A DNA stretch of 64,000 bases from Rhizophagus irregularis (taxonomy: Eukaryota > Glomeromycota > Glomeromycetes > Glomerales > Glomeraceae): contig NC_089442.1 in NCBI RefSeq assembly GCF_026210795.1, positions 3,314,501 through 3,378,500 of the forward strand. The letters are read 5' to 3'. Below, piece after piece: positions 446 to 64,000 of the stretch. The notes under the pieces were generated by a model, which worked only from the letters and a program-made list of their open reading frames with translations, was not told the origin of the DNA and did not search any database. How positions within the stretch are numbered: the first letter of the stretch is position 1; the number at the start of each line of letters is the position of its first letter. Made by a program: the position numbers and the translations under genes.

Positions 446-717
446 TCTATCTCTTACGTATAAGGAAAATAAGAAAATAAGCAGTAGTTTTTTAATATAT
501 TAATTAACAGTATGTAATTGATTAAATTTCGATGATCGTGAAATTTTTTGCCGTATTTATAAAAAAAAAAACCGTCGATCTGATTGACAAAATTGCGTAA
601 TTCATTTTGACGTTATAAATCTATATAACGCGTAATATCAGAAAATTTTTTTTCGTAATCACTATCGTAGGCAAATTACGCATCCCTATCCCTTGACGAA
701 ATCATTTTTTTTTTACG
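446..717. promoter_or_regulatory. Divergent intergenic region between ECM29 and PGS1
   Basis: A 272-bp gap separates the start codons of two divergently transcribed housekeeping genes, so it must hold both promoters. It contains several copies of a TTACGC/GCGTAA-like element (near 593, 630 and 675) and an A tract. No canonical TATA box is placed with confidence. Promoter function is inferred from position only. Confidence 0.5.
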
Positions 718-2877
718 ATGAAGATATCTACGATATCAGAATTAATTTTGAAATTTTCGCAGAAAAGAAATTTAAATAACTTTTCTCAATATTTTTCAAT
801 AAATAATATACGTTCTTCTGATAAACTTTTATCATTATTTAGAAGTAAACGTATTTTTACTCGTTTTGTTTCAAGCACAACCCATTCTTATAATCAAAAT
901 AAACAAAAACACAAATTGAAACCTCAACATGTTTTAATTTCTAATTATAGTTCTTTTATTAACGAATATATAGAAAAGCCACCATATAATAATTTTAAAG
1001 ATTTATTAAAGATATCTCCATATTTTTTGCTTAATGGAGAACAAATAAGGCTTCTTCAAGAGCCAAAGGAGTTATATGAAGAACTAAAGGTAATCAATTA
1101 TGCACAATTTTTTAATTTACAAATGTTTTCTAATTTAATTGTTTTCTTTATAGTCCCAAATACTTGTTGCTAAAGAGCGAATTTTTATAGCTGCATTGTA
1201 CATTGGCTATAGTGAAAAGGATTTGGTAAAATAATGTAATTTGGTTGTTGTTGTTATATTTTTAACCATAGTAAATTTTTCGCTTTTTTAGATTATTTGA
1301 CAATTATTTGTTTATTAATAGGTTAATACACTGAGAATAGCAATAAAGAAAACCAAGCAATTGAAAGTTCATATATTGCTTGATTGTTTGCGGTCTACAC
1401 GTACTGGTCAAACACCTTCAGATAAAAGTCCTGCATACCTTCTCTTACCACTTGTAAAAGAGTTTCCAGATCAAGTAACAGTATCTTTGTATCATACCCC
1501 AGATTTGACGGGGATTTTGAAAAAATTTATTCCTCCTAGATTCAATGAGGGGATCGGATTGATGCATATTAAATCTTTTATTTTTGACAACAATCTATTA
1601 TTAAGTGGGTAAGTGTAAATACTTTATTTTATTTTTTTTCTTAACACACGTTAATCAAAGTTTTGTTAAATGCTTTTAGCGCCAATTTGAATCATGATTA
1701 TTTTACCAACAGACAAGATAGATATATGTTATTTGAAAACACACCATCTTTGACAAATTATTTTGCAGATCTTGTAGAAACGGTAGCGTCTTTTTCATAT
1801 AGATTGAGCCCAACTAAACTTGTAGATGAGGATTCTTTTAAGTTGGTTTTAAAGAATTATCCAGATCCTGTAACACAAAGTACTTTATTTAGGGAAAATT
1901 CTTCTCTCATCATGAATAATTTTATTAAGAGATGGATAATACATAGCATTGAACAAGATCATAATTTATCTTTACAGAAGTATGATACGATTGTCTTTCC
2001 GATTATACAAATGAATCCTTTATACATTAGACAAGATGAGCTTGCAACATTTATTGTTTTGGACGCAATTTCAATGCATGGAAATAAAATTAATGTTAAT
2101 GAAAATAAGTTTTGCAGAGTATTTTTTACATCTGGATATTTTAATTTTACTCAAAGTTATAAAGAAAGGGTTCTGAATGCTAGAGCAAAATTTCAATTAT
2201 TGGCCGCTTCACCAGAGGTACTTTGTATGGGAACATCAAAATTATAATATATATATATTTATAATTCATTCATATTATGATTTTAACTTGATTATAATTT
2301 TCAAGGCAAATGGATTTTATAAATCTAAAGGTATCTCAAAATATATTCCACAAGCTTATACATTTTTAGAAAAACAATTTTATTCGGATATTTGCCATTA
2401 TGGAAAAGAACATTTAATTAAAATACAAGAATACAAGAGGCCAGGATGGACTTTTCATGCGAAAGGTGTGTTATTAACTACTCTTTTTTTTGATTTATTC
2501 ATTACGCCATTCTTATAATTATCTTGAACCAGGCTTGTGGTGTTATCTTGATGGAGAATCGTGGCCAAGTCTGACCATAATTGGATCCTCCAATTATGGA
2601 TATCGATCAACTGAAAGAGATCTTGAAGCACAGGCAATCTTGATAACAGAAAATACACAATTGAGAAAGACAATACATGATGTAATTATTAGTTTTTAAC
2701 CTTGATTTGTTGATAAGACAGTTTTATGATATTGCTAATAATTTAATGCATCCATAGGAATTGGAGAATATGTCTAAGTATACTGAAGAAGTAACGAAGG
2801 AAACTTTTCAGCAAATTGATAGAAAAGTTCCATATCTTGTTGGAGCTGCAACCAGATTAATTAGAACAATGTTATGA
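718..2877 (+). CDS. PGS1: PGS1, CDP-diacylglycerol-glycerol-3-phosphate 3-phosphatidyltransferase (mitochondrial)
   Basis: Seven exons (718-1089, 1154-1225, 1322-1608, 1680-2217, 2306-2465, 2533-2681, 2758-2877) splice in frame to 565 residues. The enzyme makes phosphatidylglycerophosphate from CDP-diacylglycerol and glycerol-3-phosphate, the committed step to cardiolipin, on the mitochondrial inner membrane. It belongs to the phospholipase D superfamily, and both HxK motifs are visible: HIKSFIFD at residues 230-237 followed by GANLNHDYF, and HAKGLWCYLD at 474-483 followed by IGSSNYGYRS. The second motif is interrupted exactly by an intron after the Lys codon. The N-terminus (MKISTISELILKFSQKRNL) is basic and Ser-rich, consistent with a mitochondrial presequence. 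Length and motif spacing fit PGS1 rather than cardiolipin synthase of bacterial PLD type. Start chosen as the first ATG of the open exon after an A/T-rich leader. Confidence 0.92.
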
Positions 2878-3411
2878 ACATGATTGTTTTGATTAGTTGC
2901 ATGAGAAATTGTTTTTGCAAACAAAATAAATATATCTTGAAGGTTAAAAGAATAAAAATGAATAATTATTATTACCGTTTTTTATTCTTTTCTCACTATG
3001 GTAGATATTTGAAAGTATATGTTCGAGCTATAAGGAAAAATAGATGTCTATTTACACGTATTCATACGAAATAACGAAAAGAAGAGATTATGGTTGATCT
3101 ATTTATTACCGATTTATATAATGCCGAATGACAAAAAAAAAAAGCTTTTCAACTTTTGTTATAACGTACTTTTAAATATTCTTAAGAGTATAGATTTATG
3201 AGTTTACGATTTCCAGAATATAATATTTGTCGTAACATTTGAATTGTTTGTAAAGATTTTTATTTGGAAATATACGTCGTAAATATTTTCCATTATTAGA
3301 ATAGAGATCTTGTTTAATGTAAATACGATATTTTTAGAGATCTACATTGAGTAATGTCAAAATGTCACGTGTTTTTACAATCACATCTTTTTTTTTTAAA
3401 AAAAATCTACG
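2878..3411. other. Intergenic, PGS1 to next gene
   Basis: About 530 bp, AT-rich. No supported coding sequence. It contains a CACGTG palindrome at 3366-3371, 41 bp upstream of the next start codon, a plausible bHLH/Cbf1-type site, and a T/A-rich leader just before the ATG. Confidence 0.5.
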
Positions 3412-4848
3412 TTGCCACGCTTAATTGATAGTATGCATACATTCCATCGTTCAATTTTTCTAGCTTCTACTTTTACAAAATGCAATAATTATCCATCTTT
3501 ACTTTTAAAAAAATATCAAAATAATCTAGTAAATATTTCTAAATTTACAACTTTTTCAATAGATACTCCTAATGAAATTTATAAACATACTAAGTTTAAA
3601 TTAAAATTTGATCCTAAAGAAGTAGAAGAAGAAACTCTATCAATTTTACTTGATCCTCAAGGACCTTATGCGGAATTACCAAAATATAAAAGAGCTCCAG
3701 CACCAAGAGGAGTTGATTTCAAAAAGCTAACAAGCTTGGAAAAATATGTTTTTTCTAATCCTTATGGTAAGAATAAATTTAAAATTTTTATAATTTTTTC
3801 TCATATATTCATTCATTTATCTATTTAAAATATTTATATATATATTTTTCTTTTTATCTAAATATAAGCTTCAATAATTGGATCACCAATTCGTCAATGT
3901 ATTTATCATCAAAGATGGTTTCCTCAAGGTATGTATCATTATAATAGTTATAATTTCATTCCAAAATCGTTAAATACATTAGATTTTAAACTTTCATTTA
4001 ATTTATAGATTTCTTGGTAAGGTTCATAAGAGCTTATGATAGTGAAACATCTTCAGTATGGATCGTACCAGATTTTAGGGAAGAAGGTGGTTCAAAAAGA
4101 CCTGGTAAAGGTTATTGGATAAGATGTAATGCTAAAATATTACAGGATTTTTTTATGGAAGGTAATTATATCAAGAAATTTTTCAAAAAAGAAATTTGAT
4201 TCTTGATTTATTAATTTATTTATTTAATGTATTTATTTATTTATTTATTTATTTTTTTTGAAAATAGGTAAATATAAATCAATTGATAATAGAGCATATT
4301 GGAGAGAAGATATGCATGAACATGTTTGGAATTTACTTGTTGAAGATTCTATATTAAGAATTGATAGGATTAATGAAAAGTTGGGTACAATTAAATTTCC
4401 TATGAAAAAAGAGGAAGCTTTTTTACCCATTATCAAAGATTCAGATCATTATTATGTAGATTATCATAAATCCATTAGAGGTTTACAATGTGTATTGGTG
4501 CTTGATGACCCTTCGGATAAGACGATTGAAGAAGAATCGGATAAGAGTGAAAATGAATATTATAATATAAAATCAACGAAATTAAAGAAATCAGAGGATT
4601 CTTATATACCCTTAAAAATACCTTCAAATCATATTTGTTCATTGAGAAAAGTAACTTACAATAATAACTATGTAACTCAACATATTCCATTTTATTATGT
4701 TAAAACTATCTGGGGTGATGAAGGAATTAGAAAAATCAAAGAATATGCTCAATTGAAAGAAAACCAAAATATGATTGGTATAATATGTATGCCGCATACT
4801 AAACAATTTGCTATATCCTTATGGAAATTGAGAAATTTTTGGCAATAA
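3412..4848 (+). CDS. Probable mitochondrial protein of unassigned function
   Basis: Four exons (3412-3766, 3869-3928, 4009-4161, 4268-4848) splice in frame to 382 residues; every junction is phase 1 GT-AG. The N-terminus is basic, Ser/Thr-rich and lacks acidic residues for about 50 positions (MPRLIDSMHTFHRSIFLAS...), as in mitochondrial presequences. A compact central block, LEKYVFSNPY followed by ASIIGSPIRQC and RWFPQDFLVRF, looks like a conserved core of fungal mitochondrial proteins. The middle (about 190-230) contains HEHVWNLLVEDSILRIDRI, a predicted helix. I do not recognise a named family with confidence; a mitoribosome-associated or respiratory-growth protein is possible but unproven. 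No membrane segment is evident. It lies downstream of PGS1 on the same strand with its own leader, so it is probably an independent transcript. Confidence 0.75.
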
Positions 4849-5824
4849 AAGAGTTTATTTGTATTATCGAATAGTTTTCTTATTATCAAGTAATGTTTTA
4901 ATAATAAAATAATTTTATTTTCCGATGTGAATACAGTATATTGTACGTAACCTAAAGACATCTTATAGTTAATCTTCTTTTTATATGATCAATATCTTCA
5001 AAATAAACGATCCCACTTTTCGTTAGAATTATGTTTAATATTTTAATATGCCTAGTTAAATTGACATCTTTATTGAATAAAATGACTTAGTATGATATTT
5101 TCATCAAATTAAGATTATCGGATAAATATGAATAACTCAATGGCCATTGATTCATAACGTATCTACCCGGTTTCGGATGACTTGTTGAATACTACTAATT
5201 TACAACAAGTCCGACCAATCACGTGCAAAATTATCACGTGACTGAACGGACTACGCTCTGGAGTCCGGACTAAGAAAATTTTCTTGTTTAGTATATTATC
5301 TCAATAAACGTATCAATTTTAAATTCACGTCAAAGGATGATTTAATTTTTTTTCAAATCTGCGAATGAAAAAAAGTATTCTAAAACCAATTGTGGATTGT
5401 TTTCATGTTTTCCGCATGAATCTTACTTTTTTTTTTGTACAGTGCATTAATCGGTGATTACTGTTAAGCATTTCATTTTTATAGCTACCATAAAAATCTG
5501 TGATCTCAATTCCCGAGAGATTTGCTGTAATCATAAAACGATCGATTCTAAAGTTTTATGAGAATAAACAAGACAAATGAAAGTGCATAATATATTCGGA
5601 TCAAGGTGCGAACGACACACTGCAGTAAAGGTAAAGAGATAAAGTTAAAATAATTCTTATATTTTAAAAAATATATATATCATGTATACGGTATAAATAG
5701 AAGGTACGAAATTTATTAAGGAAAATTAATATATTTTATTCATCTATTTATTTATTCTAAGTTTATTCCCAATATCGACATATTTTTGCTGAAATGGGTA
5801 ACTACTATCTATTAATATTTTATG
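4849..5824. other. Intergenic with a palindrome-rich core near 5205-5275
   Basis: Between convergent genes. No coding sequence seen. The core holds two CACGTG sites (5220-5225 and 5235-5240) set in an inverted repeat: an AGTCCG...TCACGTG arm faces a CACGTGA...CGGACT arm. A perfect AGTCCGGACT palindrome follows at about 5264. This may be a small hairpin element or a regulatory palindrome. Confidence 0.4.
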
Positions 5825-6628
5825 TTATTTATTCTGACTCTCCTCACTATCCGGAGAGATGACGTCAGTGTCGGTCGGAAGTGGTAAGTGCGAATATTTT
5901 TGATAATAATTTGGAATTGCTGCAGAATGTTCTGAAAGTGGAGGTTCATATGAATAATGTCTTGTATTATATGTCGAAGACGACATATATAAAGCTGTTG
6001 AAGGACTTTGTGGAGGATGTTGAGGTAAAGGACTTTGAGGTGGAGGATGCCGAGGTGGAGGAAGAGGAAATTGAGGGCGAAAATATATTAATGAACCTCT
6101 TTGATGATTATCATCTGGAATTCTTTCCGATAATTCTATGGCAGGAACCTCATTATGTACATTTTCATCTATTGAAGGACGTTGAGATTGATTTTTCTTA
6201 TCTTTTTTATTTTTTGAAAATTTCCTTTGTATCAATATTACTATACTACCACCAACGATAACAAAGCCAATCATGATGCCTAATATAATTGCGGCAATAT
6301 TAATAGTACTAGTATTTCTCTGGGTGTTTTTAGTTATAGTTGAGGTTTGTGTCGCAGCCCTTCTAGGTGTAACTGTTGAAAGAGCTGGTAAATTCTTATT
6401 ATGTTCAGTTATTGTAACTATTTCAGTTAATGTTATTGGAGAGGGAGCAATAAAAGGAGCTGTTGTAATAAAAGGACTAGCAGACGTCGGAATAACAGAA
6501 GGTATAGGCAAAGATGGATCAGGAATTTCTGGAGAATGAGAAGGTACGGAAGGAACTGGAATGAAAGGATCTATGATTATTCCTCGAGCCCTTATATCCC
6601 CTTCATTTTCTTCTCCTTTCCTTGACAT
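5825..6628 (-). CDS. Ser/Pro/Thr-rich single-pass membrane protein
   Basis: An open frame on the minus strand with ATG at 6628 and stop at 5825, 267 residues. Order: a short charged start (MSRKGEENEGDIRARG), a Pro/Ser/Thr-rich stretch likely to be O-glycosylated (residues about 25-105, repeated PSVP/SPxI runs), one hydrophobic segment IAAIILGIMIGFVIVGG, then a strongly basic stop-transfer run (QRKFSKNKKDKKNQ) and a cytoplasmic tail with Pro-rich runs (PLPPPRHPPPQSP) and several Tyr. The layout predicts a plasma-membrane protein with outside N-terminus. No signal peptide is encoded in this exon and an in-frame stop lies upstream of the start, so a 5' exon encoding one may be missing, or the TM acts as signal-anchor. 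It resembles the 47638-48899 protein in plan. No enzymatic domain recognised. Confidence 0.65.
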   Translation of the reverse strand: MSRKGEENEGDIRARGIIIDPFIPVPSVPSHSPEIPDPSLPIPSVIPTSASPFITTAPFIAPSPITLTEIVTITEHNKNLPALSTVTPRRAATQTSTITKNTQRNTSTINIAAIILGIMIGFVIVGGSIVILIQRKFSKNKKDKKNQSQRPSIDENVHNEVPAIELSERIPDDNHQRGSLIYFRPQFPLPPPRHPPPQSPLPQHPPQSPSTALYMSSSTYNTRHYSYEPPLSEHSAAIPNYYQKYSHLPLPTDTDVISPDSEESQNK

Positions 6629-7952
6629 TATTTTTTCTTCCAAAATGGTAGAAAGGAAAGGGAGAAGGTAATGATGAAAGGAATTTTAGTATTATATGTA
6701 AATTAATAGAACATAGAAAAATAAAATAAATGATTTCGATGATGAAGGATTTAAATATCATGAAAAAAGATCACCGTAAAGAATATAATATTTTATTTTT
6801 TGCCATATATGTAACTATTTAAATGAACCTAAGCGTTATTTTCTTACTACTATATGATCGCTTAATTACTAATTATTTTGATAAGCAAAGAAAATTGAAC
6901 GAATTTGGAAAGTAATCTATACCATACCAATAACAATCAGATTTGGTGACACGAGGCTAACCAAATTTATTACCAATATTTTACCCATTGAAGCATAACT
7001 GATAAGCATTGCTAAAATAAATTCATTATACTAATAATTAACGGCCAAGTTTAAGATGATCATGATTATACTAGTTCAATGCTTGTACCAAGGTTTTGAC
7101 ATTTTGTAACATGCTAATGGGTAAGGTAGGTCAATCCAATCACATTTTAAATTGTCTAATATTCTATTTTAAAATGATAACTGCCCATCCCACTTCGCAT
7201 GTTTCTGCGGAGTGGGTAACCTTATGGACTCTTCACTCGTTCAAACCACTGATCCTTGGAATGGACGTATCCTTTCTATCGACCTATATAACAAGTCCCT
7301 CAAATAATCATGATAGACTTACCCATGTCTTCACTTCTCTTTTACTATTTATTATAATAAAATAACGGCAAAATAAGTCGTATACTAGCCATATTGAAAA
7401 ATCGGACTAGTGGAACGAAAGATATCGATGAAAATTCTTTTTCCTTAATTGTAATCGTAATATTTCGTAATATTTCCATCACATATTTCATCCACACCAT
7501 AAATCCGCCTTATTCTTTATACCATTATCCAAATCTTGAATGTTAGTTCCGCTTCAATATCTTGGTATTACATCAGATACATCAGAAGGTACTAAACTAC
7601 GTTATATGCTTTCACTTCCGATTTGATGCCTTCTAAAGCATGGAAGATCAAATATAAAAACATTTACTTTAGTATATCGTTGCTTGATACATTGAATTTT
7701 GAACGCGCTAATCTTACATAAGCACAATGAGTAAATAAAACCATATATAGCGTGAGTGATTGATTAACTTTGAGATATTTAGTCTCCGAAAAAAAAGAAT
7801 TACATAAAAGAATTACTCAATTTTTAATAAGTTATCGTAACCCATAACCCATATAACAATAGCATGTTAAATGATTGGTAAATTACGCGTTCGCGTAATA
7901 TAAATTATAAAAAAATTTACGTGATAGTTGCGCCAAGCAAGATAAACGGTTA
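6629..7952. other. Intergenic, no supported gene
   Basis: AT-rich. A short open frame at 7096-7365 has no recognisable domain and no coding bias I can defend. A 13-bp near-palindrome (ATCCCACTTCGCA ... TGCGGAGTGGGT) lies at about 7187-7217. Confidence 0.35.
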
Positions 7953-8450
7953 TGATTTCCCGATCATTTCCCGAAGTCATTTTTCCGATTGCTCATTTTC
8001 CTGAACTGGATCATCTCCCGAAACTTCAATTTCACTAATATTAATATGGACATTTTTACTAGATTAATAAAAGATGTCTTTTTAACACATTTCATTTTGA
8101 CTTGGTCATACAGTGCATAAAAATGATTGAGATCATTTGATTACAAAATTTAAAATAAAATCACATTAATTAACAAAATATATACAGTATATATACGATT
8201 AATGCAATATATGAACCATAAAAAAAAATCACCTGACCTACTACGCAATAATTACTGAATTATTATTTAATAACTTTGATAAAATTCTTGACGTCATATA
8301 AATACATATATTATATAATAAACTAAAAAAAGTATAGTCTGGATATTGAAAATTGGGATTCTGGAAATTGGAGTTTCAGAAAATGATCCAGTTTGGGAAA
8401 TGAGCGTTCAAAACCGGAAAATGGTACATTTATACCAGCAAATGGAACTT
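7953..8450. mobile_element. Foldback-like element 1, arms built of degenerate CCGAA repeats
   Basis: The left arm (about 7953-8037) and right arm (about 8350-8450) are imperfect inverted copies of about 60-80 bp. Both share the core GCTCATTTTCCTGAACTGGATCA type sequence followed by a CCCGAAAC/TCTGAAAC unit and CAATTTC. Each arm is a run of 16-20-bp units of the form ATTTnCCnGAAnn. The intervening 300 bp is AT-rich without an ORF. Two similar structures occur at 43714-44190 and 44282-45018. No transposase is present, so it would be non-autonomous. Target-site duplication not identified. Confidence 0.5.
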
Positions 8451-13805: not shown

Positions 13806-15826
13806 TTATACTACAGAACTATCAGATGTTACACTTTCGACGGATATGGCCAATTTATCTTGAATAGTTTCATATGCTAAATGACAAAATAATTCTTGAT
13901 TAGTTTAGATATTTCTGCATATAAATTACAATAAAACTTTTTTTAAAAGAACTTACATGATTGTTGATTTGACCCCATATTACTTTTCGTGACATTGCAA
14001 TTACGAAGCAAATCACCAAAGTCATGAAGTTTACTACCTGAACTTTTTAATAACGGTTTTAGTTTCAAATTGCGCCTCACCACACTAGGATCAAAATCAC
14101 AATTATCAAAAGATAGTTTGTACTTTTCACTGAAATATTCGTGAAGTTTTGCAGAGGTTGGCCGGGCTTCCGGGTTGTTATCCCAGCACTGCTCCATTAA
14201 GTACTTTAAAGTGTCTGGAAGATCGGGTGGAATTGTCGGTCGAATACCGCTGACGATATCAATTGCCAAGTGGCAATCATGCACTCGGTCGTGAAAAGGT
14301 GGGAAACCAGTCAATATCTCGTACATTAACATACCCAAACTGTAAATGTCAGCTTTCGGGGTGAATCTATCAAGACGCAACACCTCTGGGGCAATATATG
14401 GTAGATTGCCATAGATGCTAGTCGGTGGCTTGTCCGCTGGCCCGCACAATCCCAAATCAGAAATGAACCATTTTGTATCAGAACGGCGCAACACGTTACC
14501 AGAATGAAGATCACGATGCACTAAATTATTATCGTGAATTTGGACAAGTGCTGAGCAGATACATCGGAGAATATTATAAACTTCTTTCGCTGTAATCGAG
14601 TACAAATTTTCCTGAATATAGTGATACAGATCACTCTCCATTTCCACCATGACTAACATAAAGTCATCGCTCTCAGGATCCCGTGTTACACCACAACAAT
14701 GAACCACCTGACATCCGTGTCCACGTAAGGTAAGATGCAACGTCAACTAATTATCATACTGTCGGTTAGCGTCGCACCTGCACCAAGTATAAAATTAAAA
14801 TTCGATTTCACTTGATAAAAACCTCTTTGAAATATTTCGTATCAGCTATGCTTGAACCCTCAAGTCGTTTCATGATGACTTTATAAGGACCACTTCGTCC
14901 AAAAGTACGCTTCTCGTTGTCAAATTCTTTCATATATCCTTTCGTCCAGATCGCAGTATAAATAGTCGCACAACCACCTCTGGTCTTGTATTTCATATTT
15001 TCGAGTTCTGAAAATGGAATCCATTCCTGTATCCAACCAGGTAACGGAAGAATCATTTGAGATTTCCTGATGGCTTCATCAATTACTTCATTCCCAGATG
15101 ACCAATTTACAAACTCGGATTTTAGTACATCACGCGAACAGTGCTCGCATGTATAATTTGTATATCCAGACCGTCCACACAGTGCACATTTATATTTTGG
15201 GCCCTTAAGAAAAAGCAAGTTCCGAAAATCCTTATCAAATGTAATTCGGCGTTTGGTTTCAACTTTCTCAGCAACAGTTAATTTCTCATGTTGATCGATG
15301 ATGTATAGCTGATGCTCATATTTTTCATTTAGATCATTGCCTCGTGCAGCGAATCTCGATTCATAAAAGACGGTTGTAATAAGTTCATGGCGTAGCTTGT
15401 TGAACTCTTTACAATATAATATTCGAACTTAGTATCAGATGATAAATGTACAAAGTACTTTTTTATTTAAAGAACATGTAATTATATTAATCACCTTCAT
15501 TTAGATTATTCTCATCGATTCCTATTCTCTTTTGTTGACGTACGGAGGTATTTTGGTCCTCTATGATTATTTTAACTTCTGCAATTTCATTTTGTTGCTT
15601 GCTTAACTTATTAATTGAATCTTTCACACACTTGGAATAAAAGACGATTAATAATACTGTAAGTAAAAGAATTGAGCCTGAAACGACAAAAACAATTATA
15701 ACGGATGTTAATATCATTGTATAAACGTCCAAACAAGTTTAATTTACATAAAAATGAGAGTCGACATTGGGAATTCTCACCAGATACAAACATATACGTG
15801 GTACCGCAAACAAAATTCAGTTCCAT
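13806..15826 (-). CDS. Membrane-anchored protein kinase, TKL-like
   Basis: Five exons reconstructed on the minus strand (15826-15781, 15677-15495, 15427-14823, 14746-13957, 13876-13806) splice in frame to 564 residues. Residues about 12-31 form one hydrophobic segment (MFVSGSILLLTVLLIVFYS), followed by a coiled, charged linker. A Cys cluster C157-C160-C170-C173 (YKCALCGRSGY...CEHC) then precedes the kinase. Kinase motifs: degenerate Gly loop RGGCATIY near 226; VIMK with Lys263; catalytic HRDLHSGNVL at 355-364; DLG instead of DFG at 375-377; and APE at 397-399 followed by DIYSLGMLMYEIL. HRDLHxxN and the overall plan fit the large TKL/Sel1-type kinase expansion of glomeromycete fungi. The kinase itself is certain. 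The two 5' exons rest on splice sites and frame only; without them the protein would be cytosolic. Exon 4 may begin a few codons differently. Confidence 0.8.
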
Positions 15827-19225: not shown

Positions 19226-20701
19226 TCATTTTTTGATTATTTGAAATACTTCATAATCATCTATTTTAAGTTGCTGATTTTTGGCTATAAAATTACCACA
19301 ATCAGGATAAGAATAAGGACCATAACTATAAATTAAATTATTATCTTGAATAGAAAAATCCCAACCACCACCAAAAGAAGGACCATAATTGATATTATAA
19401 CCTATTGCATAATCTGAAATATTACCACCATTTCCTATTCTAGCTATTTTTGGAGTAAAATTGTCATTTGAAGAAGGTTTTAATGGAAAAGAAAATAAAA
19501 AACTATCAAAAGTAGAATACCAACAACTATCACCTGATAAATAAGATAATTCTGAATGAGGTTTCCAATCCAATGGATTATAACCACCAATTAATTTACC
19601 ATTTGAACGAACTTTTGTTATAGTAACAGTTGAACCTTTATTATCACATAATTTATGAAATTTTTTTGCTGAAAAACCATCCCTACTCGCTCTATATAAT
19701 AATTTAAATGAATAAGGTAACCTTTTACGATCATAAAAATTGATTTCTTGTTTATCAATCCAACTTGAAATTATTGCAGCATGTTTTTGTTCAATTAATA
19801 AAGAATCCAATTTACCAGATTTTTGTGAAATTCTTGGGGGTAAAATAATAGTTTTAACCTCATATGAAGTATCTAAATTATAACATAAAATTTCATGAAA
19901 TAAATCTTTTGGTATAATTTTTTTATAAGGTAAAATATATTTCCTAAATTCACTTGAAGTAATTTGAAACCATCTAATTAAAGGAATAAAATCTTGAATT
20001 AAATCTCTTAAATTATTAATATTATCTTCATTCCAATTAGAAAATTTTTCATCCTTATTATTATTATTATTGATTTGTGATAAACTCCATTTAATTAAAT
20101 TATTCCAAAGATCAATTTCTTCTAAATTTATAACATCACGTTTAATTAATGATAATAATAATGATTTATCTAAAGTTAAAAATTCTTTTGATTTAAATAA
20201 TAGATTTGGATCCTCACATATTACTTCAAAACAATAATCCCTTAATATTGAACATACTTCATGTCTAAAAGTTATTTTAAGAATTTTAATTGGATCCTTT
20301 CTTATATAATCATATTGATTTTCTAATAAATATTGTTCAACATGAAAAATTAATTTTTGTAAATTTAATTCGTCAGCGGCGATCAAAATTTGAAGAAGGA
20401 TCGTAATTTCATGTTTAGATAATTCAATTTCAGCCGTATATAAATATTTAAGTAAAATTTCAAAAATTTTAGGAGAAATATTTGGTTTATTAAAATTAAT
20501 AATTCCACTTTCTCTATGAGCCCAATTATTTGAAAGTGCACTTCGAAAATAAGTACATCTCGCCCTCAAAATTAATGAATGAACTTTAAATTCTCGTGAA
20601 TCATTTCCTTCTCCGGCTTTTATGATTACATTATAATCATCTTCTTGATCCAATAATTTACCCATATCATTAGATAACTCGCTTAAAAGTTCGTTTGCCA
20701 T
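19226..20701 (-). CDS. BTB-BACK-TLDc domain protein 1
   Basis: An intronless frame of 491 residues, ATG at 20701. The N-terminal BTB/POZ domain spans about 20-125, with DYNVIIKAGEG, FKVHSLILRARCTYFRSAL and PNISPKIFEILLKYLYT (the BTB dimer core). A BACK-like helical region covers about 130-250, and the C-terminal TLDc domain about 305-491. TLDc landmarks are FKLLYRASRDGFSAKKFHKL, CDNKGSTVTI, LIGGYNPLDW, SFLFSF and the terminal FGGGWDFSI...YEVFQIIK. BTB-TLDc proteins are greatly expanded in glomeromycete fungi; BTB may recruit Cullin-3 and TLDc is linked to oxidation resistance and V-ATPase regulation in other eukaryotes. The exact role is unknown. A paralogue lies at 35419-36934 on the same strand. 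Length and motifs are complete. Confidence 0.9.
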   Translation of the reverse strand: MANELLSELSNDMGKLLDQEDDYNVIIKAGEGNDSREFKVHSLILRARCTYFRSALSNNWAHRESGIINFNKPNISPKIFEILLKYLYTAEIELSKHEITILLQILIAADELNLQKLIFHVEQYLLENQYDYIRKDPIKILKITFRHEVCSILRDYCFEVICEDPNLLFKSKEFLTLDKSLLLSLIKRDVINLEEIDLWNNLIKWSLSQINNNNNKDEKFSNWNEDNINNLRDLIQDFIPLIRWFQITSSEFRKYILPYKKIIPKDLFHEILCYNLDTSYEVKTIILPPRISQKSGKLDSLLIEQKHAAIISSWIDKQEINFYDRKRLPYSFKLLYRASRDGFSAKKFHKLCDNKGSTVTITKVRSNGKLIGGYNPLDWKPHSELSYLSGDSCWYSTFDSFLFSFPLKPSSNDNFTPKIARIGNGGNISDYAIGYNINYGPSFGGGWDFSIQDNNLIYSYGPYSYPDCGNFIAKNQQLKIDDYEVFQIIKK

Positions 20702-22464
20702 GATTTGAAATTTAGTAAGTCTTTTTTATAGAAAGAAAAAAAATAAAAATAAAAATTTTAAAATGGGGAAAAGGGGGGGATTTAATTTATAATCAATTTT
20801 TAATACATTATAAGTTAGCGTTAAAAATAGTTATAAAATTGGTTTTTTGTGTGGCGTAAAGTCAACGTGGCATTTTGCGATTCGATTTGCAGCTTGTTGT
20901 ACATATAAATAAATAGTACACCAATCAACGAAAATCAAAAACGAAGAAAAAATATTTCATTTCGTAGATTAAAAGTTTTCAATCATGAATAATGTTATTT
21001 GTACATAAATGTATTCATAGAAAGATCAGCCGCCGTCCGATTTGATCGGGGAATTTTTTATAAATAGTTTCACAATTCTTGCAATGTGTAAGTCAAATGT
21101 GTACTACATCACGGCACATATATGTATATATATCATAAGCCACGTTAAAATCATCGCAGGAACCACATGTATCTATTAACGACTAAAATATATACTGAAT
21201 CTAATAATTTTTGGGAGAAATTTATTATGGAACAAATATATAATTATAACGTGGAATGCGTCTATTTAAATTTAAAAGTCAAAAGTATAAACTTTGATTA
21301 TTTAGTCATCTGGTTTTTTTTTCAAGTTTTTCCTTCTACGAAAAATGGTAAAAAAATACTGTGTAATTTTATTATTGCAATTGTTATACAAAATGAATAA
21401 CGGGATTGTTTATTACCCATTTCGGTATAAGGTCAATTACAAGAAATTTTTAGCCGCAGTTTCCATAAAGAATGTGACTAAAAGGATCAGCATCAAAGCA
21501 GGTAGATCATTTTTCGCAAATCAATTTTCGAGAAACGGGAAATCGGTTGTGAAATTTATGGGAAATTAGTTATACAGGTTTTTCCATATTTAACTCAGAA
21601 AATATTACTGCGCAGTATGCTTTAATATGCAAAAAGGATATTTTTAAACTAAATATTCATGTTGATGCTGATGATTACGAGCATATGATTCAGCCATGAT
21701 TTTCATAATAAAGATTTATTGCCCTAGGTCCTAATGATAAAAGTAATCAATCCTAAAATCTCTTACTTTTTCTTTTCTTGGCACAGTTGGCGCGACGAAA
21801 ATGAGATGATCATTTTGGTAATTTACAATAAATACGCTAAAATTAGAAGTCGGACTATAATAGTAATGTGATACAGGTTAAAGAAGGTAAACTTTGTCCT
21901 AAAATAGGATTACAAAGAATATAGATCTACGTTGATCAATAAAACTAAGAGTCTTCCAAAAAGACCAAACATTTAGAAAATAATTCATTTTTAAGAAGAT
22001 ATTTACTTGAAGGATTTTGAAGTTATTCATAACAAACATTTTATTTTTTTTATGCATATGCTAAATTTATAATAATATAGAGTTATGTTTTATGTTTTCT
22101 TAAAATAAATATGTATCCATAATTTTCTAATAACAGAGTTCAGATGATTGGTTTTGATTTCATGTGAGAATAAGATATTGGATGATTAAACTAGTTCTAT
22201 TTAAGATTTTTAATGTTAATCATTTTTTGAATGAAATTACTATATATCATAATACGCCTAATATTTCGATCTACTTACTGCATGCATTTTTTACACACTC
22301 TTTTTTTTTATTGTACAATAAAATCATTGTTATTTATTGAATCGGACTTTTGAAATCTTTCTTTTTTTAAATAAAAATTGACAAACATATAAATTCTTCT
22401 TATTTTTAAAAATATATTATTATTCAAGAAAAAAAAAAATTTTTAAAACATTAAAACTTATATT
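20702..22464. other. Intergenic, BTB-TLDc and RING-TPR promoters
   Basis: A divergent region of about 1.8 kb. Short ORFs at 21167-21569 have no recognisable domain. A purine run (GGGGAAAAGGGGGGG-like) lies near 20763, just upstream of the BTB-TLDc start. Confidence 0.35.
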
Positions 22465-35418: not shown

Positions 35419-36934
35419 TTATTTTTTTCTTATAATTTGAAATACTTCGTAATTTTCCATCTTAGTTAATCCCGCGGAAATAAATGATTGTGAATCAGGA
35501 TAAGTACTATGACTTTTACAATATAATTGATTATTACTTAAAACTAAATCTGGACCACCACCAAAACCAGGACCGAATTGTTCATTATATAAAATCGCTT
35601 TATCAGATTTTAAAGAATTCACACGTGAAATACGACTAATTACACCTTTTGAAGTATTTTTTGTAAAAGAAAATAAAAAACTTTTAGAAGTTTTCCACCA
35701 ATTATTTCCATGTCTTTTATCAAATTTTGGTTTCCAATCAAGTGGATTATATCCTCCAATTAAATTTGATGAATTTGGTAAAGAAATAACTACAAATATT
35801 GCACCTTTATTATCACATAATTCATGAAATTTTTCATTATTAAATCCATCTCTTGTAGCTCTAAAAAGTAATTTAAATGTATAAGGTATCATTATACAAT
35901 CAATATCTTCGCTAACTTTATCATCAATCCAATTCGAAATGATTGAAAGATGTTTTTGATTAATAAGGATAGAATCAAGTGGTTCTTTTCTTGCAGGTAA
36001 ATTTGGTAAACTTAATTTAGGTTTAGAATTATTATAATAACATGTAATTTCTTCAATTAAATTTTCTGGAAGAATCTTTTTAAATGGAATAACATATTGA
36101 ATAAATTCTGTTGAAGATATACTTAACCATCTAATTAATGGAATAAATTCTGAAATAACTTCTTTTAATAGATTAAAATCATCTGAAGTCCAATTTGTTA
36201 AATTTTCAATATTATGAATTATAGATGTTTGTGCAATACTCCATTTAATTAAATAATTCCAAACTTCAATTTCATCCATGAATAAATCTTTTCTATCCAA
36301 TAAAGCCAAGAGTAAACTTTTATCTAAAGATAAATACTTTTCCGAATTAAATAATAAATTTGGTCTCTCACAAATATAATCAAGACAATATTCTCTTAAT
36401 TGTGAACATACTTCATGATGTAATATATTCTGTAATATATTTACGGGATCATTTTGTAAAATATTTTGATGATTATCAACTAAATATTGTAATAAGTATT
36501 TTACGATTCCTGTAATATTCATTTCATCGGCTGCGACTAAAATTAAAATCAAATCTATAGGTTTATAACCATTAAAATCAAGTTTTCCTGTATATAAATA
36601 TCTTGAAATAAAAAAAAAGAAATGATTAAATATTTTTATAATTTTAAAAAGTTGAACTTATTATTAAAAAAAAAACTTACTTTAATATATAGTTGAAAAT
36701 TTTTGGTGAAATATTTGGTTTTTTAAATTTAATAATCCCTCCTTCTCTGTTAACCCAATTTTTTGAAAGTGCCGTACGAAAATATGAAGAACGAGCATAT
36801 AAAATAAGCGAATGTACCTTAATTTCTTTTCTATTATTCCCATTACCAGTTTGAATTATCGTATCATAATTTTCTCCATTCTCAAAAAGTTTTCCAAAAT
36901 CATAAGAAAGTTGTGATAAACATTCATTTTCCAT
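35419..36934 (-). CDS. BTB-BACK-TLDc domain protein 2
   Basis: Two exons on the minus strand (36934-36681 and 36601-35419) splice in frame to 478 residues. The intron lies inside the BTB domain after NYILK and before YLYTGKLDF. Domain order is the same as in the 19226-20701 protein. BTB has YDTIIQTGNG, IKVHSLILYARSSYFRTAL and PNISPKIF. A BACK-like region follows, and TLDc has FKLLFRATRDGFNNEKFHEL, LIGGYNPLDW, FLFSF and FGPGFGGGPDLV...YEVFQIIRKK. All TLDc core elements are intact. It is a clear paralogue of the other BTB-TLDc gene but carries an intron that the first lacks. Role not known beyond family: possible Cullin-3 adaptor with a TLDc module. Confidence 0.9.
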
Positions 36935-62381: not shown

Positions 62382-63224
62382 ATATAAAAAAACTCAAATT
62401 TCATCTTACGTTCCGTGCTTTATTAAGAAGAGAAACTTAATTATATTGTTTATATACCTTACATTACGCACTTAGCCAATCTACGTTACGCATTACGACT
62501 TTATAAGATAAATCAATAATTGTACTCAGAAAATAGTATATTTATTGATATTTGTTTGTTATCCCACGTTATGATAAATTTGGTTGGTTAATTTTATTTA
62601 TCACATGTGTTTGGTGTCATACATTCCCATCTACCATTTAAGCCTTTAAGGTGGTTCACGAAAAAATCAAATAAGCCAAAAGTGATATGCCAAACTAACT
62701 TTGTCACCTAAGTAAACTTGCTATTTTTATTATTGATTTTGGGGATAAGGTACTTAGTAAAATTTTACTAATAATTTGAATCTACTGCGCATAGAAATAA
62801 TTATAAATTCGAAGAATTGAATTTTTTTGATTTTTTGGGCTTATAGGAAAGTACCTTTTATATTTTAAGAAAATCTTTGAAAATTTGTCAAAAAAATACT
62901 TAATTGGTATATGTACTGTACACATACAGTAAAATGAATAAATAATTATATTAATTATATTTTAATATTTATGACTTACCTATATACGCAGCCCAGATTC
63001 CAAAATGATAAATGACGTTTATTATAGCGATAATGCCGATCTTATCCCGAATTGCCAATTAAGCAATTTTGTGATTTTTGCTGCGCCACAATGAGCGACA
63101 CACGTTACCGGATGTACAAAGTTTGTTTTTCATACATGCAGTGCGCACAATGCATTTTGTATACCTAAATAACTAATAAAAGCGTTTAATAAAAAAAACT
63201 CCATTTTCTTTTCAGTTAGGGAGA
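62382..63224. other. Intergenic and leader of the microexon gene
   Basis: No gene. Slightly less A/T-rich at 62990-63150, which may hold the promoter of the following transcript. A TTTTCAG at 63208-63214 could be the acceptor of a 5'UTR intron just before the ATG at 63225. Confidence 0.35.
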
Positions 63225-63948
63225 ATGGCTTACAGTAATGATAAAGGTAAAAAGCATGTAGCATAAATACTACTTAATACAAACTAGAATTATTCTAAAA
63301 TTTTTAAACAAATTGCAATAAGTTTCAAGTACTAGCATTAAGAAATATGAAGGTAATTTTAATATACTAAACAAGTTGAAATTAAAATTTTGTTTTAAAA
63401 ATGCTATCTATTATTTATACCTTACACATAATTTAAACTAATTATATTATACAAATGTTATATTAAATAATTTAGCTCGTAAGTTAATAGGTTACCTCAA
63501 TAATTGAATTTAATGAAATTACTTATTTTCGGTATATTCCATATAACTAAATAATAATTCATTTAATGATTAATAATACTATAGTCTGTAAGTTATCAGT
63601 TATTTCATTACTTTATTTATTTTACATAATATTAAAATAATTAAAATCATCTCTGTTTAAATAACTTATTTATAATTAATTATATTTACAGATGGTAAGT
63701 TACAATGCTTATAAAAATTATATTTGTTTGTTTTTGATGTTTTGTATAACTCAACTAATTATATTCTTTATTCAAATAACTAGATTGTAAGTGATGTATT
63801 TAATTTACAGTAAATACTTTATTATATTTATATTTAACTAATTAATAATTAATAATACTGCAGGGTGTAAGTTATGTGCTATCTATATTTCTACTATTTA
63901 TATAATTTAAGCTAACTAAACTAGATTATTTTGTAATTTCTTTAGTTA
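63225..63948 (+). CDS. Putative gene with an array of single-codon microexons (partial, runs off the right edge)
   Basis: Predicted exon 1 is 63225-63246 (MAYSNDK plus one base, donor GTAAAA). Exon 2 is 63336-63352 (17 nt, completing the codon and reading ALRNMK, donor GTAATT). Then come six 3-nt segments, each with AG immediately before and GTAAGT immediately after: CTC 63476-63478, TCT 63585-63587, ATG 63692-63694, ATT 63784-63786, GGT 63864-63866, TTA 63946-63948. Intervening gaps are 123, 106, 104, 89, 77 and 79 bp, the intron size range of this genome, and each contains a CTAAT/CTAAC/TAACT-like branch sequence 25-50 nt before its AG. All junctions keep frame, giving M-K-L-S-M-I-G-L from the second Met, which looks like the start of a signal peptide. 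No known family recognised. Alternatives: recursive splice sites within one long intron, or a tandem repeat that merely carries splice consensus. Confidence 0.55.
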
Positions 63949-64000
63949 GTAAGTTATAAGTTATTTATTTAATTCTATTATTACATATTTATATAACCAT
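63949..64000 (+). other. Start of the next intron in the microexon array
   Basis: Begins GTAAGTTATAAGTTATTTAT and runs to the window edge. It resembles the start of the intron after the TCT microexon, which supports origin of the units by tandem duplication. Confidence 0.5.

Follow-up and report, generated by a model that had tools for sequence, protein, structure and literature searches.

Arrays of putative three-nucleotide exons in protein kinase genes of Rhizophagus irregularis

At more than 100 protein kinase loci in the genome of Rhizophagus irregularis, one stretch of the protein appears to be encoded by dozens of exons of only three nucleotides each. The right edge of the window, as we call the whole stretch of 64,000 nucleotides that was analysed (G000:C14:3314501-3378500), very probably holds the start of such a gene, in which about 35 3-nt exons encode an arm and are followed by a 1-nt exon and then by the kinase exons. 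From the way these sequences have evolved we conclude that the 3-nt exons are spliced and translated, and that the arm is a hypervariable segment placed after a conserved N-terminus and before the kinase.

The gene at the right edge of the window

An earlier note on this DNA had pointed to six AG-NNN-GTAAGT sites, and these were found exactly as it had listed them, all on the + strand, at 63474, 63583, 63690, 63782, 63862 and 63944, with NNN = CTC, TCT, ATG, ATT, GGT and TTA. The intervals between the sites measure 80-109 bp, in agreement with the 80-110 bp it had given. Its statement that such sites are rare by chance also held: the 64-kb window contains eight matches of AGNNNGTAAGT, compared with a mean of 1.04 and a largest value of 4 in 100 dinucleotide shuffles. 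Comparison of the whole window with Rfam gave no family at gathering score, and Tandem Repeats Finder listed nothing for 63336-64000. The gene is laid out as follows, with L001:1 corresponding to window position 63001.

63225..63246, + strand: exon 1, coding part (ATG GCT TAC AGT AAT GAT AAA G), ending in phase 1, read from the sequence and paralogues
63247..63322, + strand: intron 1 (GTAAAA ... AG), borders set by eye from homology
63323..63352, + strand: exon 2, 30 nt, phase 1 at both ends
63353..64000, + strand: AT-rich introns with putative micro-exons 1-6; the array runs on past the window edge
63476..63478, + strand: putative micro-exon 1, CTC, 3 nt; CTC is also the first unit in many paralogues
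63585..63587, + strand: putative micro-exon 2, TCT, 3 nt
63692..63694, + strand: putative micro-exon 3, ATG, 3 nt
63784..63786, + strand: putative micro-exon 4, ATT, 3 nt
63864..63866, + strand: putative micro-exon 5, GGT, 3 nt
63946..63948, + strand: putative micro-exon 6, TTA, 3 nt
L001:1290-4875: MULE element of about 3.6 kb with a transposase frame, in one intron of the array
L001:7563 (G000:C14:3385063): putative 1-nt exon
L001:7658-7928 and 8001 to about 8867: kinase exons

The paralogues also possess exon 1 (MAxSNDK-G) and exon 2. The counterparts of exon 1 read MAHSNDK, MAQSNDK and MGQSNGK, each with a GTAA donor directly after it. Exon 2 of the window gene, (G)TT TCA AGT ACT AGC ATT AAG AAA TAT GAA G, is in the same frame, judged by eye, as its counterparts in L016 (VSSGTKESEG), L009 (VPSSTEESEG) and L026 (VSNSTKESEG), and the array is entered in phase 1. 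The two small exons with which the triplets had been said to be in frame thus exist by homology and the frame is kept, but exon 2 ends in phase 1 and the triplets are not whole codons. With the phase-1 G of exon 2, micro-exons 1-6 would read A L Y D W F, and ALxDWF recurs in the paralogues.

When the locus was extended to the right, as the earlier note had proposed, the array was found to go on for about 7 kb with about 29 further 3-nt exons, leading into the protein kinase. The two joined kinase exons match PK_Tyr_Ser-Thr (PF07714) at 1.9e-36 and 126.1 bits, with a gathering cut-off of 23.1, and are free of stops. The transposase of the MULE element in the array intron gave a match of 5.6e-22. 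At the edge of this element lies a GGG unit with the donor GTGAGT, which is probably transposon end sequence; it stayed in the unit list, and the phase is unaffected. With this unit omitted, the arm of the window gene reads MAYSNDKVSSTSIKKYE-ALYDWFNYERKKFQIDSVVQASRYQRFDHHDNYSF-E in phase 1. The conceptual peptide of N-terminus and arm matched no Pfam family.

Within the first kinase exon, L001:7740-7870 contains a duplication, with the glycine-rich loop GGFSTIYKAI present twice. More kinase-like and BTB/TLDc-like frames, named by eye, are located in the window at 13943-15428, 19226-20725 and 35419-36657.

Exon length, phase and stop codons

The arrangement was counted in all 32 contigs (146,748,485 bases) with a pattern consisting of GTAAGT, 68-98 bases, AG, exactly three bases and GTAAGT, and the reversed pattern was used as a control. 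The earlier note had suggested looking for other arrays in the genome, and 4,051 such neighbour pairs were present compared with 117 for the control. With 4-12 bases instead of three there was little excess genome-wide (953 versus 844 reversed). The first kinase exon has at least 151 matches genome-wide, with 150 of 4,031 candidates scored.

For closer analysis 27 loci were fetched, 20 by similarity to the 5' region (window 63131-63480) and seven by the window or the pattern; 12 later loci were picked by the 1-nt-exon pattern together with a kinase match. In the 27 loci, AG stands exactly 3 nt upstream of GTAAGT in 618/670 cases on the array strand and in 1/25 on the opposite strand, and in the later loci in 326/342. 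Intron length ranges from 77 to 111 nt (5-95%), with about 93 nt being typical; exon length is thus held and intron length is not. The content of G is 2.6% in intron interiors and 20-30% at exon positions. Measured by the generic criterion for micro-exon genes, the inferred exons have a length of 3 nt, in phase 1 in the kinase family and in phase 2 in a second family (L003, below). The proposal of a serial array of 3-nt exons in a fungal gene is therefore borne out at the level of sequence evolution.

In phase 1, each codon is split by an intron of about 93 nt, its first base being base 3 of one exon and the other two being bases 1-2 of the following exon. Joining and translation of the exons would require these split codons to avoid stops, and no DNA-level process is known to us that would couple bases 93 nt apart in such a manner. 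Junctions were counted in 21 of the 27 loci, leaving out L003 (the other family) and L009, L014, L016, L024 and L026 (decayed), and steps of more than 140 nt (120 nt in the strict-donor test and the test of the 12 later loci) were excluded. The splice-site matrix used to list the units had been trained on these same loci; the later loci were scored with this matrix of the old ones, and the unit finder itself demanded AG and GT or GC.

A single stop, located in L010, was found in 598 phase-1 junctions, compared with 36.6 ± 4.2 in within-locus shuffles, and 0/2000 shuffles were as low. Stops were not depleted in phase 2 (104 versus 79 expected). Base 3 and bases 1-2 of the following exon shared a mutual information of 0.206, a value reached in 0/500 shuffles (0.055 after shuffling). 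Smaller increases were seen for the phase-2 letters (0.124 versus 0.063) and between the third bases of successive exons (0.038 versus 0.016). When only strict donors were used and the conserved ends were excluded, 284 junctions contained no stop, versus 14.7. The same was true for the nine loci with stop-free aligned kinase exons (0/129 versus 6.1) and for the ten other loci (0/155 versus 8.7).

For the 12 later loci the avoidance of stops had been predicted before they were fetched, and no phase-1 stop was found in 331 junctions, versus 12.7 ± 2.7, with 50 versus 37.6 in phase 2. The predicted ALxDW-like start was present in 5/12, the first codon of these arms taking an assumed G from exon 2; the stretches of L030 and L033 begin inside the array, and in some of the remaining loci lacking such a start the first units were not found. 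A kinase exon was recognised behind the 1-nt exon in 11/12, a prediction partly built in by the choice of loci. The stop-free phase is the phase required by exons 1-2 upstream and by the 1-nt exon and the kinase exon downstream. Phases 0 and 2 were rejected for the kinase arrays by the stop tests and the frames of the flanking exons. Few arms are complete, because gaps of more than 140 nt without a unit are left in 17/21 and 8/12 arrays.

The earlier note had taken each 3-nt exon for one whole codon, that is phase 0, a reading which the near absence of stops from the split phase-1 codons makes extremely improbable. It could draw on the low number of stop triplets inside the exons, which is 2/659 and 3/363 units in the two locus sets and would be 18.4 and 7.5 from single-base composition. 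However, 1.6 and 2.3 are expected from exon bases 1 and 2 alone. Where base 1 is T, base 2 is mostly T as well (142/156 and 89/99), and the harmless triplets TGG, TGT and TAT are equally rare (4 and 6), so the pairing of bases 1 and 2 accounts for the low counts and phase 0 has no depletion of its own. The depletion relative to the shuffles lies across introns, in phase 1, and exons 1-2 and the kinase exon require phase 1. Moreover, five of the exons consist of TAA or TGA, and three of these sit in the arrays of L032, L034 and L035, which are free of phase-1 stops.

Splice signals, a putative 1-nt exon and a second array family

The donor GTAAGT is present in 567 of the 659 chained units. Branch-like CTAAC and CTAAT sequences had been noticed in the gaps of the window, and this observation extends to the other loci: CTRAY was detected in 425/598 introns (97 after shuffling), with a median distance of 36 nt from the downstream exon. 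The base directly before the donor is unconstrained (A 23, C 23, G 22, T 31%), hence donor recognition does not lean on it. NAG triplets, which place a second AG at the exon end, are found 6 times versus 17.5 expected.

At the end of the array, [CT]AG-N-GTAAG precedes a kinase-exon-like start in 14/27 loci, N being A in 13 of the 14 and T in L027. The kinase exon starts with AG/A TTT GG in 12 loci; L006 has AG/A GTT GT instead, and the exon of L005 deviates and is interrupted. The other 13 loci are decayed, belong to the other family, are cut before the kinase or were missed by the expression used. Adding a 1-nt exon to phase 1 gives phase 2, as the kinase exon requires. Genome-wide, TAG-A-GTAAGT occurs 124 times versus 6 in the reversed control, with at least one end counted twice. 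Isolated 1-nt exons have been shown experimentally in the single conserved plant genes APC11 and VPS55, the latter with a GTRAGT donor (PMC4674806, PMC8831610), whereas the 1-nt exon proposed here closes an array of 3-nt exons and recurs at about 120 places.

The introns may be recognised by intron definition, through the near-constant GUAAGU donor and the CTAAY-like branch site. Since two spliceosomes cannot occupy one 3-nt exon together, the introns would be removed one after another, and each ligation would leave the growing exon followed by the donor of the intron next in line. Such stepwise splicing, which we infer from exon size, has been proposed for the 1-nt exon of Arabidopsis APC11 (PMC4674806). 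Because each unit has 3 nt and is phase-symmetric, units could be gained, lost or skipped without a frameshift, and the array could serve as a variable linker, expandable codon by codon, between the conserved N-terminus and the kinase domain. At the zero-nucleotide (recursive) splice sites of Drosophila and vertebrates, too, an intron is taken out in steps and a donor is regenerated; these sites add no nucleotides to the mRNA, whereas each step proposed here would add three.

A second family of arrays is represented by L003.

G000:C1:1723001-1732500, 678-8440: L003 array of 69 putative 3-nt exons, phase 2

The introns of this array are unrelated to those of the kinase arrays, and it stands before a coiled-coil exon, which phase 2 joins via a 26-nt exon (borders by eye). 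Phase 2 contains no stop, phase 1 six and phase 0 three; phases 0 and 1 were rejected on account of these stops, leaving only phase 2 open. Taken alone, the junction-stop test is weak for L003, with 0 stops versus 0.77 expected. The predicted arm is proline-rich: PPPPPLPGRLPLG. Given this second family, the architecture would have arisen at least twice or moved between genes.

A non-coding satellite, meaning an AT-rich tandem repeat of about 95 bp that carries AG-NNN-GTAAGT by chance, would fit the likeness of introns within and between arrays, and such families stem from tandem duplication. It does not predict that bases about 93 nt apart avoid stops in one phase only, that the flanking exons match this phase, that a second array is built with unrelated introns or that a 1-nt exon recurs before the kinase, and we regard it as highly improbable.

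Some members of the kinase family are decayed. In L009, L014, L016, L024 and L026 few units are intact, and the matched kinase exons of L016 and L026 contain stops. In L024 (reverse strand, about 560-910), exon 2 has expanded into ESSVEESER-like repeats, as seen by eye. Degradation of the array beside broken kinases was compared in 18/27 loci, nine with and nine without kinase stops, frameshifts or interruption (the other nine loci have no usable kinase match). The difference, 0.85 versus 0.73 by a crude measure that is poor for short arrays such as that of L026, was not significant (p = 0.13).

The predicted arm and comparison with known small-exon genes

In the phase-1 reading, the arms of the first locus set mostly start with ALxDWF or a variant of it and end with PF, SF, AF or similar, and E-FGKSGN-like kinase sequence follows. 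The middle parts vary in length and character, being charged in L025, proline-rich in L008 and rich in D, H, N and W in L023 and L035.

L018 and L038 are paralogues that lie on the same contig. Their first 13 and last 12 triplets agree at all but one of 75 bases. This difference, GAA versus GGA, corresponds to CGA versus CGG in phase 1, both coding for arginine. In the 28 aligned introns 159 of 2,503 bases differ (6.4%), with 88 gap events, and the units between the shared ends have turned over. These data bear on the possibility that the array is always skipped, with exon 2 being joined to the 1-nt exon and the kinase exon and the array being a decayed or structural intron. Such skipping would preserve the frame for any number of units, each having 3 nt. 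Triplets that are never joined would nevertheless be expected to drift as introns do in L018 and L038, would not be held at a length of 3 and would not avoid stops in codons made only by splicing, and constant skipping is thus very unlikely overall, although single genes may be spliced in this way. Splicing and translation of the triplets remains our preferred reading.

Within arrays the reverse of the L018/L038 case is observed, with nearly identical introns adjoining different triplets. In same-locus intron pairs with 2-3 mismatches (91 overlapping pairs), the difference is 0.028 in the intron and 0.32 in the exon. In 39 disjoint pairs with an intron difference of 0.016, the exon positions differ by 0.26, 0.13 and 0.33 upstream and by 0.21, 0.21 and 0.44 downstream; in 31 of these pairs both members belong to L007, L017 or L025. 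The most variable exon base near such near-identical introns is position 3, the first codon position beside the donor, and this applies mainly to L007, L017 and L025. The triplet differences could be explained by diversifying selection, or by conversion of introns with the exons kept apart by selection. Judged by its position beside the kinase domain, the arm perhaps serves in the recognition of a partner. A more speculative and rather doubtful idea is a diversity system in which single residues of the arm are varied at two levels, in the DNA as units are duplicated, lost or rapidly changed, and in the transcript as units are skipped, giving many arms per gene.

Several known systems share features with these arrays. 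The micro-exon genes (MEGs) of schistosomes are described as having many small exons of 3-81 bp, variation in splicing and introns of up to 5 kb (PMC10526429). They resemble the present genes in their many small exons; their products are secreted, their exon lengths mixed and their introns long, in contrast to uniform 3-nt exons, mutually similar introns of about 93 nt and a kinase gene. In aphids, bicycle genes are reported to contain numerous small internal exons that almost all share one phase, with coding sequence that evolves fast, and one of these genes has more than 100 micro-exons; they encode insect effectors, and the covered parts of that paper do not mention uniform 3-nt exons (PMC9168663). 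The product of the present arrays would join a kinase domain. In human RPS24, three consecutive micro-exons of 3, 18 and 22 bp are combined in several ways (PMC11162997); one of them is 3 bp long, but there are three sizes, compared with dozens of exons of identical size here.

In the 32-chromosome assembly of R. irregularis DAOM197198, 2,533 kinases were counted, and the terms 'microexon' and 'short exons' do not occur in the main text of that paper (PMC10234402). By title and abstract, the architecture was not recognised in the open-access literature searched, partly among the best 15 of 731 and the best 15 of 34, a body that mostly leaves out subscription papers and preprints.

If transcripts confirm it, one genome would contain, at more than 100 loci, stretches in which almost no codon consists of three adjacent bases of DNA, to our knowledge the most extreme exon-intron architecture. 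The lower limit of exon size could then be tested on thousands of natural cases, a purely intron-defined, stepwise splicing would be favoured, and it would be seen how a coding region can grow by single codons while keeping its frame. Exons this small are difficult for gene predictors and RNA aligners, which suggests that, given such confirmation, these programs would misread the kinases concerned in a main mycorrhizal model fungus.

Short rows of exon-like units of 4-12 nt, with a spacing of about 110 bp and other intron sequences, were seen at five places (G000:C3:1903078-1903517, C1:3582212-3582658, C1:3919690-3920249, C1:5137090-5137428 and C2:4516227-4516452); they are perhaps another kind of small-exon array.
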